DNA of 64,000 bases from contig NZ_JAILYN010000002.1 of assembly GCF_019795155.1 (NCBI RefSeq), positions 124,001-188,000 of the forward strand, in the 5' to 3' direction. The translations under genes were made by a program, and so were the position numbers. The notes under the pieces were generated by a model. The model saw only the letters and a program-made list of their open reading frames with translations. It searched no databases and was not told the origin of the DNA. Below, piece after piece: positions 48,154 to 51,608 of this stretch (position 1 is its first letter; each line of letters opens with the position of its first letter). The stretch is from Marinobacterium arenosum (GTDB taxonomy: Bacteria > Pseudomonadota > Gammaproteobacteria > Pseudomonadales > Balneatricaceae).

Positions 48154-49398
48154 TCAAACCAACGTGTTACCGATCAACCAGACACCGGCGTAGCCGACGC
48201 TGTAGGCCAGCAGCAGCAGGTGCAGGAAGCGCATATAGCTGATGAAGCTGAGCTGGGCGATTTTGCTCATCGCGATCACCCCGGCCGCCGAACCGACGAT
48301 CAACAACGAGCCGCCGACGCCGGTAGCGTAGGTCAGGCAGAGCCAGTCCGCCTTGCTCATCTCAACGCCGGATTTCAGGATCGCCGCGGTCAGCGGCACG
48401 TTGTCGACCATCGCCGACAGCAGGCCGACCAGGTAGTTGGCCGCCCAAACCGGCAGCTCATGATAGAGCAGCGGCAGCGAATCCAGCACCCGCAGCTCCT
48501 TCAGCATCCCCACCAGCAGCAACACGCCGAGGAAGAACAGCAGGGTGTCGAACTCGATCTCGCGGATGAATTCCAGGATGTTCTTACGCTCCGCCTTCTT
48601 GCGGTGCAGAAACTGGTAGCTGAGGAACATCACCGACAGGCCAAACAGGAAGGTCAGGACCGGCGGTACCCGGAAATAAACACTGAGCAGCAGCGTATTG
48701 CCGATGGTCAATACGAACAGCAGCGCCAGCAGCTTATCGCTGCCGGAGATCGGTCGGCGGAACTTGGGCAGTTCCAGCTCGCCACTGCTACCGCGAACCA
48801 GGCAGGCCAACAGCACGAACACCCCCGCCAATGCCGCAGGGATCAACAGGAACAGATCGGTGATGCCTACCTTACCGGCCAGGAAGATCATCAGCGTGGT
48901 GACGTCACCGGTGATCAGCGCAACACCGCCGGAGTTGACTGCGAACACCAGCAGCGCGGCAAACTTCAATAGCTGTTTATCGGACAGCTGCAGCGATGAC
49001 AGCAACGACAGCATGATCAGCGAGGCGGTGATGTTGTCCGCCAGCGAACTGAACAACAGCGCCAGCAACGCCATCAGCACCATCAAACGACGCTGACTCA
49101 GCTGGCCCGGCAACAGCCGGTAAACCACCTGGGTGATCAGGCCCTGCTGGTTCAGATAGGCGACGAAAGTCATTGCCGCCATCAGGAACAACCAGAGTGT
49201 GGCGATGTCGAGCAGGTTCTCATTCAGGCTGTGCTGAATAGCCGCCGCATCGACGCCCTGCTCGGGAAAGATGAACGCCAGAATCCAGACCAACGTACCG
49301 AGGAACAGGCTGGTCTTGGCCTTGTTTACGTGCACGATATCCTCGATCACGATCAGCAGAAACGCCAACGCGATCAGGCACAGCAGCAGTGTGTGCAT
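48154..49398 (-). CDS. nhaD: Na+/H+ antiporter NhaD
   Basis: Inner-membrane Na+(Li+)/H+ antiporter of the NhaD/arsenite-permease-related group, frequent in marine bacteria. The 414 residues form about 12 helices, with ALADNITASLIMLSLLSSL-like and DNVPLTAAILKSGVEMS as the two conserved half-site motifs and NSGGVALITGDVTTLMIFLAGKVG. I chose the ATG at 49398; it lacks a good ribosome site. A GTG 16 codons upstream is possible but lies in a structured leader. Confidence 0.92.
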   Translation of the reverse strand: MHTLLLCLIALAFLLIVIEDIVHVNKAKTSLFLGTLVWILAFIFPEQGVDAAAIQHSLNENLLDIATLWLFLMAAMTFVAYLNQQGLITQVVYRLLPGQLSQRRLMVLMALLALLFSSLADNITASLIMLSLLSSLQLSDKQLLKFAALLVFAVNSGGVALITGDVTTLMIFLAGKVGITDLFLLIPAALAGVFVLLACLVRGSSGELELPKFRRPISGSDKLLALLFVLTIGNTLLLSVYFRVPPVLTFLFGLSVMFLSYQFLHRKKAERKNILEFIREIEFDTLLFFLGVLLLVGMLKELRVLDSLPLLYHELPVWAANYLVGLLSAMVDNVPLTAAILKSGVEMSKADWLCLTYATGVGGSLLIVGSAAGVIAMSKIAQLSFISYMRFLHLLLLAYSVGYAGVWLIGNTLV

Positions 49399-49543
49399 AA
49401 TGTTCGCTAACCATTTTTTTGTTATTGGGGGGTGTGCAGCCGGCACCGGTCCATCCGCAGGGATGCCTCGCCATGATCATGGCAAGCACCCGGCCCACTT
49501 GGATGGTCTGGTGGTCACGAGCCGCTGCAGCGGGACGATTATA
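49399..49543 (-). promoter_or_regulatory. nhaD promoter and potentially structured leader
   Basis: On the minus strand TATAAT (49538-49543) is a perfect -10 with a poor -35, predicting an RNA start near 49531 and a leader of about 133 nt. Inside it GGGTGCT (49485-49491) can pair with GGCATCC (49461-49467) around the palindrome GCCATGATCATGGC (49470-49483). A G/C-rich segment (ACCGGTGCCGGC) follows, and then an A-rich single-stranded run up to the start codon, which has no clear ribosome site. Confidence 0.5.
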
Positions 49544-49661
49544 CGCCTGTTTTCCGCACTGCAGCAGCCGCTATTGGCAGGAGTATTATTACACTCTCGA
49601 ACTAGCCGATACTTTCACCCAATGGCCCAATTTTTCTGAAAAAGGGTTGCTTTACAGCAGG

Positions 49662-51608
49662 CTAAGCCAGCTCGGTTTCCTTTGTTTCAGCACGCTGGCG
49701 ACTGACGAACTCGGTCTGCCGACCATCCGCCTGCAGTACCGACACCTCGACCGGCCGCCCCTGCCGATCCAGCTGCAACAGACCTATGCCGTTGCCGTTG
49801 AGCAATCGCGCCTCGCCATTGCCAACCGGCCGGCGCGCCTTGATGCGCATCTGGCGCCGCTTGGTAAACCAGTTCAATGGCGAGCGACTGCTATAAAGTG
49901 CGCTATTGATGCGGTCGAACCAACGCAACAACCGACGGGGAAACTCGTTCTTCAGGCCACTGCAGGTGATCTGCCAGATTGCCGGGCTGTTCTTGCGCCG
50001 GCGCAGGCGGATGTCGTAGGCAAAGGAGTAATGCACGTCGCCGGACAGGATTACGAAATGCTGTGGCGTTTTCGGGTGGCTGAAGATATTCAGGATCACG
50101 TTGGCGGAGCCGGGATGTGCCATCCAGTTTTCGGCGTCCACCAGCAGCGCATGGCCGAAGTAGGTAAACATCCGCTGCACCGTCTCGATCAGCTTGACGC
50201 CGAAGATCGGCGCCGGCGACACCAGCAGCACCGCCGGCTCGCCGATCAGTTCCTGTTGCAGTTCCGACAGCGCCTCCCAGTCCATCAGGCCGGACGGCTT
50301 GGCGGCGCTGCTCTCCGACCACCAACGGCGGGTACGGGTATCCAGCACCACCATCTTCGGTTGGCTCGGCACGCTGTAGCCCCAGCCATCGAATTCCAGC
50401 AGAACATCGATCAGCTGGTCCTGCGGCGCTTTCTCCGGCCGCTGGAAATAGCGCTGCAGCTGGCTGATAAAGGTGGCGTCGAACCGCTCCGGATCGTTGC
50501 CCCAGCCCTGGCACAGCCAATAGCCTATCAGCGCATTGCCGATGATTCGGCGCGAGAATGGATGGTTGTAGGCGGTCTCCTCCCAGCCGCGGGTCAGGTT
50601 CCAGTCGTCGGTGATATCGTGGTCGTCAAAGATCATGTAGACCGGCAGCTGCGCCATTAACCGCTGCACCTGCGGCAGCCCCTCGGCGAAGCGCTTGATC
50701 TCCCGCTGCTCGTTCAGGAAGCGCTGGCGGTTGTCGTCCGGCACCCGCTCCAGCGCCGTATCGATCCGTTGCCAGAGCACCGGCGACCAGACCAGCAGGT
50801 ACATGGCGATCACCTCGGCCAGGGTGATCAGATGGTTATGGGCGGAGTCGCTGGTGAAGATCGGCTTGCGCACCCCTGCGAAGAAGCGGTCCTCCAGCGT
50901 GGCGCTGGCCTTGTCGTGGGGCAGCAGCTCTTCGCGCCGGTAGTAGCAGTGCTCGCTGGCCTGCAATGCTGCGCTATCCGCTACCAGCGCACCGTCCAGC
51001 TGCTCCGGCCAAAGCCCCAGCAGCTCGATGGTCCGGTGGATTGCCACCAACATCGGCCCGGCGACATCGTCGGCGTAGATCTGGTCGCCCGACATCATCA
51101 GCAGTGCCGGCCGCGTCTCCTCGCCGGCCTGCGCCAGGGCCAGTTGGCGGTCCGCCTGCAGCAGTGCGTCCTCGCCCGGATAGTGGGGTTTGCGGCAGGA
51201 GCCGTGCAACAGCCGATCGAGCCGGCTTTTCAGCATCAGGCTGGGCCGCTGCTGGCCATCGTAGAGCAGCCAGGGCTGCAGATCGGCCAGCCCCCGCTCC
51301 CCCTCGGCGGTGTCGAGCCGCAGGTCGTACTCGAACAGACAACCTGCATCCAATGGCTGGTCGAACGGCAGCCGGATCAGGTGGATATAAGCCCGCTCGC
51401 CGACCGCGATCAGCTCGGTATTGGCCGGCTCCAGCGGCGTACTCTGGAACGGTTCCGCGTCGCCGGGCCGGTACAGCTCGGCACGGATCGTCAACGGCCG
51501 CGAACCGACCAGCCAGAGCGCCAGTTGCTGCTGGCTCAGGCGGCGGACGATGGGGCCGGCGAGGATATCGGGTAGTGTGGCGGTGGAACTATCGGCGGAC
51601 TGGGGCAC
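49662..51608 (-). CDS. PhoD-like metallophosphatase
   Basis: A 648-residue protein of the PhoD-like alkaline phosphatase group, without a signal peptide, so probably cytosolic. Metal-site motifs are MMSGDQIYADDVAGP (about 170), YMIFDDHDITDDWNLTRGW (about 325) and ILSGDVHYSFAYD (about 530). Such intracellular members are poorly characterised; the substrate is not known. It is followed by nhaD on the same strand, but a 264-bp gap with its own promoter separates them. Confidence 0.87.
   Translation of the reverse strand: MPQSADSSTATLPDILAGPIVRRLSQQQLALWLVGSRPLTIRAELYRPGDAEPFQSTPLEPANTELIAVGERAYIHLIRLPFDQPLDAGCLFEYDLRLDTAEGERGLADLQPWLLYDGQQRPSLMLKSRLDRLLHGSCRKPHYPGEDALLQADRQLALAQAGEETRPALLMMSGDQIYADDVAGPMLVAIHRTIELLGLWPEQLDGALVADSAALQASEHCYYRREELLPHDKASATLEDRFFAGVRKPIFTSDSAHNHLITLAEVIAMYLLVWSPVLWQRIDTALERVPDDNRQRFLNEQREIKRFAEGLPQVQRLMAQLPVYMIFDDHDITDDWNLTRGWEETAYNHPFSRRIIGNALIGYWLCQGWGNDPERFDATFISQLQRYFQRPEKAPQDQLIDVLLEFDGWGYSVPSQPKMVVLDTRTRRWWSESSAAKPSGLMDWEALSELQQELIGEPAVLLVSPAPIFGVKLIETVQRMFTYFGHALLVDAENWMAHPGSANVILNIFSHPKTPQHFVILSGDVHYSFAYDIRLRRRKNSPAIWQITCSGLKNEFPRRLLRWFDRINSALYSSRSPLNWFTKRRQMRIKARRPVGNGEARLLNGNGIGLLQLDRQGRPVEVSVLQADGRQTEFVSRQRAETKETELA

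Follow-up and report, generated by a model that had tools for sequence, protein, structure and literature searches.

A stem in the leader of the Na+/H+ antiporter gene nhaD probably forms an RNA hairpin which, judging from sequence comparison, is kept in shape and not in letters in two of three relatives from the same genus. The reading we tentatively prefer, given slightly less than an even chance, is that of a lineage-specific, passive 5' untranslated stem-loop which would shield or insulate the nhaD mRNA; the stem itself was demonstrated by the comparisons below, and from it we infer the stabilising role. There was no sign that the leader in the window (the whole stretch of 64,000 nucleotides that was analysed) senses sodium, lithium or temperature.

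The nhaD gene and its promoter region

The minus-strand gene behind the leader had been annotated as nhaD, and this was confirmed by comparison with the curated model NF038006, against which the product scored 167.2 bits (cut-off 80); Pfam CitMHS also matched the product, and TIGR00775 gave 206 bits, under its cut-off of 577.1. NhaD matches at E ≤1e-60 were found in 28 out of 57 genomes, the organism's own included, with 50-81% identity in the others. A longer NhaD starting at an in-frame GTG (position 49446) was considered and ruled out, as the relative L003 carries in-frame stops (TGA TAA, 30 and 27 nt 5' of the nhaD ATG) and a longer N-terminus is therefore not conserved there. An open reading frame of 92 amino acids which begins at 49498 overlaps nhaD, running into it in another frame. 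The PhoD-like phosphatase gene upstream was also observed upstream of nhaD in L006/L033 and L035/L125, and was not detected at the remaining nhaD loci at E 1e-8 in the flanks of 1.5-2.5 kb that were available. Coordinates of the features are given in Table 1.

Table 1. Features of the nhaD region in the window, and nhaD leaders of the neighbouring genus (positions in the respective locus)
Feature	Position	Strand	Details
nhaD, Na+/H+ antiporter	48154-49398	minus	414 aa; ATG 49398-49396; NF038006, Pfam CitMHS
A-rich tract AATAACAAAAAAA	49414-49426	minus	in the place of a Shine-Dalgarno sequence; similar tract in 4/4 genus members
Outer helix, CCATCC/GGATGG plus flanks	49444-49513	minus	predicted only
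Conserved leader hairpin	49457-49494	minus	38 nt; -19.0 kcal/mol; -96 to -59 from ATG
Core stem of 12 bp	49462-49490	minus	4-nt loop GAUC, one bulge; compensatory changes
Perfect 14-bp palindrome GCCATGATCATGGC	49470-49483		hairpin tip
Candidate -10 hexamer TATAAT	49538-49543	minus	perfect; predicted transcription start ~49531
PhoD-like phosphatase gene	49662-51608	minus	upstream of nhaD, gap ~260 bp
nhaD leader, neighbouring genus	L007:1341-1503		
nhaD leader, neighbouring genus	L046:2341-2503		
nhaD leader, neighbouring genus	L035:2341-2503		
nhaD leader, neighbouring genus	L008:2737-2899	minus	
nhaD leader, neighbouring genus	L006:2737-2899	minus	
nhaD leader, neighbouring genus	L124:2737-2899	minus	
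nhaD leader, neighbouring genus	L126:2737-2899	minus	

The perfect -10 hexamer reported in the initial annotation was present and predicts an nhaD leader of ~133 nt; the window contains 5 copies of TATAAT where 5.79 are expected, i.e. no more than by chance, and no consensus-type -35/-10 pair passed in a scan of positions 48800-49800. TATAAT was also found at -105 from the nhaD ATG in L003 and L004, and was absent from the nhaD leader of L005. In the window the hairpin begins ~37 nt past the predicted transcription start, while in L003 and L004 a start 6-7 nt past TATAAT would land within the 5' arm of the hairpin and leave the first one or two stem pairs untranscribed; with TATAAT this near the stem, part of the role of the repeat in these two relatives could be played at the DNA level. 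Two further repeats were observed around the promoter, namely a perfect palindrome (CCGCTGCAGCGG, 49522-49533) spanning the predicted start a few bases past TATAAT, and an inverted repeat GAGT-N8-ACTC (49581-49596) which lies ~40 bp upstream of TATAAT and is a possible operator; L004 and L031 contain neither GAGT nor ACTC in the 250 bases that precede nhaD.

The nhaD start codon had been described as lacking a usable ribosome site, and indeed there was no good Shine-Dalgarno sequence, the longest ribosome-site match before it being a 3-base GGT, 11 nt upstream. The A-rich tract was mostly unpaired in the fold model and, among the unpaired parts of the leader, was the clearest stretch shared by the four genus members.

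Folding and conservation of the leader hairpin

The description of the leader as structured stood for one hairpin at the level of the genus and failed for the leader as a whole, which folded like its shuffled versions (z -0.20, -0.67 and -0.49 in separate runs) and ranked 37 of 72 (z -0.49) in a comparison of distinct nhaD leaders which included the additions from the neighbouring genus. Among sub-spans of the leader, two that were cherry-picked reached z -1.5 and -1.7, and a third -0.5. The long stem that had been noted around GCCATGATCATGGC was present; when the hairpin was folded alone, z was -2.89 for a 31-nt span (4/200 shuffles) and -2.64 for the 38-nt span (1/200 shuffles), both spans having been picked post hoc. 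The palindrome has a single perfect copy in the 4.8-Mb genome, and an origin as a repeat or mobile element was rejected for this reason.

Conservation was assessed across a genus sample of four genomes, i.e. the window, L003, L004 and L005. The leader of L031 (filed as a Neptuniibacter sp. MAG) is the same as that of L003, and that of L032 (filed as a Marinobacterium sp. MAG) goes with L005. A counterpart of the hairpin was found in L003 and L004, at -101 from the ATG, 40 nt long and with an energy of -19.4 kcal/mol in L004/L031, compared to -96 and -19.0 kcal/mol in the window. In a sequence-only alignment of the window, L003 and L004, all 36 cells of the core stem were paired over its 12 pairs, with the bulge placed according to the window centroid fold, which was picked after viewing the alignment and equals the best fold in stability. 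Double-sided changes were observed at 6 of the 12 pairs, and 8 of the 36 cells were G-U pairs. Sliding the partner by 1-3 columns left 24-62% of cells paired, and in the shuffle test 1/500 shuffles reached four of the five measures while 34/500 reached the fifth. As the leaders of L003 and L004 are identical at 94 of 99 positions, all six double changes lie between two lineages. The best fold of the window, applied to all four genus members, gave 82.9% of cells paired; for the outer helix, 12 of the 16 pairs were gapped in 2-3 of the four rows, and pairing was seen in 74.3% of the cells left.

The consensus folding index was 0.46-0.56 for the window with L004 at all seven partner lengths, and 0.47-0.58 for the window with L031 at five of seven, the other two (0.18-0.19) being misaligned. 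An index of at least 0.45 was attained by 1 of 852 unrelated leader pairs, and that pair reached 0.68 (48 of 900 background pairs, with identity ≥0.52, had been set aside). The count of window pairs kept is a weaker test than the folding index; L004/L031 ranked 4-5 of 71 by global and 1-2 of 71 by local alignment, L028 kept 21 pairs compared to 17 for L004, and some unrelated leaders scored equally high. By sequence, the 3' half of the leader resembled L004 (1/200 shuffles as good; 6 relatives compared). The leader of L005/L032 failed to align with that of the window (folding index ≤0.13 at 7/7 lengths); L005 has a smaller hairpin of 25 nt at -92 (-7.9 kcal/mol, z -1.82). The loop letters were not shared, being GAUC in the window and AACU in the relatives. 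Thus a stem at a fixed place, conserved in shape, was found in three of four genus members, as expected of a stabilising stem-loop. An earlier reading, that no pairing was conserved, had come from plain alignment and a covariance model built from the window leader alone, and was overturned by the folding index and core-stem tests.

That single-sequence model, which leans on letters, was run on 75 sources and 29 genomes and gave a strong match only in the window itself. A second model, based on the window, L003 and L004, was strong in three of the four genus genomes, and of the nhaD leaders in 72 sources it found only the three that it was made from; across 40 genomes of the family, 11 matched at E 0.5, of which the same three were strong and the rest had E ≥0.015. 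A comparison of nhaD orthologs had been suggested as a check, with an absence of conserved pairing as the refuting outcome; that outcome applied to L005 and to the leaders searched from other genera, where none of the sources searched gave a strong match, and did not apply to L003 and L004. The leader set drew on 51 of 80 nhaD loci (with the window, a total of 73 leaders), those left out being mostly further Pseudoalteromonas loci or incomplete ones; the source counts for the models, 75 and 72 here and 76 for the model of the neighbouring genus described below, cover part of the available nhaD loci and include the window.

Known RNA classes and competing explanations

The whole window was searched with Rfam at the gathering threshold, and only three tRNAs were found. 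At E 10, three matches were obtained on positions 49300-49700, none of them a cation riboswitch; pemK (E 2.3), the snoRNA snoZ248 (E 6) and a hepatitis C element (E 2.5) were rejected as chance. The leader had no covariance match to the Na+-I riboswitch (DUF1646), even at E 10, or to Li+-I (nhaA-I, RF03057) or Li+-II (nhaA-II); the library of 4227 families searched presumably contained both DUF1646 and nhaA-II. The nhaA-I model had no match in the organism's own genome, and of 60 family genomes none was above its cut-off and two were below it (E 0.016 and 0.034). At 40 nhaD loci, no Na+ or Li+ riboswitch passed the gathering threshold, the matches being tRNAs and one lysine riboswitch (RF00168, 100 bits, L063:3861-4034), which in a Pseudoalteromonas is situated downstream of nhaD.

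The initial annotation had offered a cation-sensing riboswitch or a thermosensor as candidates. That the leader is a riboswitch of a new class, sensing Na+, Li+ or a related ion and acting on nhaD, appears improbable. The function of NhaD would fit, the nhaD leader is both conserved and structured in a neighbouring genus, and according to PMC9646797 nhaD of other bacteria is one of the genes linked to Na+-I and, at times, to nhaA-I RNAs; Na+-I occurs upstream of Na+/H+ antiporter genes according to PMC9337991, which also treats the Li+-I/Na+-II (nhaA-I) class. The window leader differs from Na+-I in having neither a match to its covariance model nor a terminator nor a hidden start, and from Li+-I/Na+-II in the nhaA-I results given above. 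The Li+ and Na+ covariance models that had been suggested as a check thus spoke against the proposal, as did the lack of conserved, aptamer-like unpaired letters across the orthologs, the lack of any terminator-like site in the leader to act as an expression platform, a region before the start that was mostly unpaired in the model, and the failure to find a match in L005 or in any nhaD leader that was searched from other genera. An RNA thermosensor, melting to free the ribosome site, is the least probable of the explanations and very unlikely. The stem does precede a start codon that has no strong ribosome site, and the region from -15 to +15 was only about half unpaired in the model; however, its modelled unpaired fraction went from 0.47 at 10 C to 0.54 at 45 C, and that of -25 to -1 from 0.68 to 0.73, and a site paired in the cold and freed in the warm was not predicted in either. 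As pairing around the start hardly changes over this range, there would be little to melt and the leader would make a poor thermosensor. The unconserved loop letters and the near-constant start-region pairing together argue against aptamer and thermosensor alike.

It is unlikely, while carrying more weight than any other alternative, that nothing was selected, i.e. that a GC-rich leader folds by virtue of its composition and that the match with L003 and L004 is a lucky alignment of unrelated hairpins. The z near 0 of the whole leader, the unrelated pair at 0.68, the higher kept-pair count of L028 and the want of an aligned counterpart in L005 all fit this; against it stand the 12 of 12 pairs in register on an alignment made from sequence only, the nearly equal ATG distance, length and energy in L004, and the resemblance of the 3' half to L004. 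Rather less likely again is recognition of the hairpin by a regulator, either a protein or a small RNA, that would control translation or decay of nhaD: a conserved stem in the leader of a stress-related gene, with G-U pairs suggestive of RNA, is what a binding site of this kind would look like, but its loop letters are not conserved and no partner was identified. A DNA operator, with inverted repeats at or below the promoter binding a repressor or activator, is about as doubtful as the riboswitch, if not slightly more so. It would account for the 14-bp palindrome, for the two repeats around the promoter and for the inverted repeat right at TATAAT in L003 and L004; on the other hand, the repeat letters differ in those relatives, neither of the two promoter repeats recurs within the 250 bases that lead up to nhaD in L004 or L031, and RNA is favoured over a DNA operator by the G-U cells of the stem, since G-U is a mismatch in a DNA palindrome.

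The passive stem-loop is preferred to these alternatives. Stem-loops in 5' untranslated regions which stabilise bacterial mRNAs, such as that of the ompA leader, are a known kind of element. The window hairpin resembles them in being a 5'-leader hairpin conserved in shape over letters and followed by a region that is mostly unpaired, and differs in its distance from the predicted start and, in L003 and L004, in lying at the promoter itself; the likeness is one of structure. In the GC-rich 5' untranslated leader with which the nhaD mRNA would start, selection would act on a single element, the stem-loop 60-100 nt before the ATG, kept by compensatory substitution relative to two relatives while most letters changed and position and energy stayed near constant. 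The hairpin may shield the 5' part of the mRNA from nucleases and may prevent the GC-rich RNA that lies upstream from folding over the A-rich tract ahead of the ATG, where ribosomes would load without a real Shine-Dalgarno sequence. If nhaD is regulated at all, control would then act mainly at the promoter, which is the likelier place for a response to salt because in Halomonas elongata, according to PMC1552076, nhaD has two putative promoters and more mRNA at raised salinity. Further points against the passive stem, beside those in the comparisons above, are the modelled unpaired fraction of only 0.47-0.54 from -15 to +15, and the closeness of TATAAT to the stem in L003 and L004.

If real, the hairpin is a small example of leader RNA evolving by compensation while the majority of its letters is replaced, a mode of evolution that escapes sequence searches. 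It also cautions against taking a long stem ahead of a cation transporter gene as evidence that a riboswitch is present.

The nhaD leader of a neighbouring genus

In a neighbouring genus, the Marinobacterium nitratireducens/sedimentorum group, nhaD was present in all seven genomes searched and its leader was conserved. The consensus fold of the seven distinct sequences has 43 pairs in five helices, and double-sided changes were observed at 11 pairs compared to a shuffle mean of 4.9 (0/500 reached 11) and 2-8 in slid versions, the fold having been derived from the same alignment that was tested, which favours it; one of five measures was attained by 22/500 shuffles. The first two helices are uncertain because L006 and L035 carry a large insertion, and the main hairpin alone covaries weakly (1 pair, compared to 11 for the whole leader). 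The hairpin adjoining the ATG contains the ribosome site GGAG, with GGAGTGAACCACTCC exact in 5/7, and a terminator-like hairpin with TTTTTT lies ~50 nt before the ATG in three of the seven (L007, L008 and L046).

No Rfam match was found at the gathering threshold in the leaders of L006, L007, L008 and L035, and at E 10 those of L007 and L035 gave chance-level matches only, the best being a fragment of the ALIL pseudoknot (E 0.042, 15 bits, cut-off 50). A covariance model of the hairpin from this genus was strong in 9 of 76 sources, all from the genus, with 12 weak matches at E ≥0.46. Across the genomes of 57 relatives 11 matched at E 0.5, of which three, again all from the genus, were below 0.001; there was no match in 390 genomes of the order under strict filters, in a sample which may lack genomes of this genus. 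No description of this leader was found in the accessible portions of the literature on Marinobacterium or on nhaD with a riboswitch.

This leader belongs to the same gene as that of the window and is likewise structured with compensatory changes; they differ in that nothing in the window leader corresponds to its main hairpin and in that its ribosome site lies inside a hairpin, whereas that of the window does not. It is a candidate riboswitch or attenuator, and a better sensor candidate than the window leader; a new cation-sensing RNA could be sought in this genus. A joint reading, in which Marinobacterium-like nhaD mRNAs would bear fast-evolving, lineage-specific, salt-responsive leaders and that of the neighbouring genus would represent a new class of cation-responsive RNA, is given little credence at present; its forms would be a bare hairpin in the genus of the window and, in the neighbouring genus, four hairpins with the ribosome site in one and a T run in 3/7. 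At a separate locus, L029, a terminator-like hairpin was observed ~24-60 nt before the nhaD start, and its T run begins ~24-27 nt before the start codon, so near that there is little room for a separate promoter.
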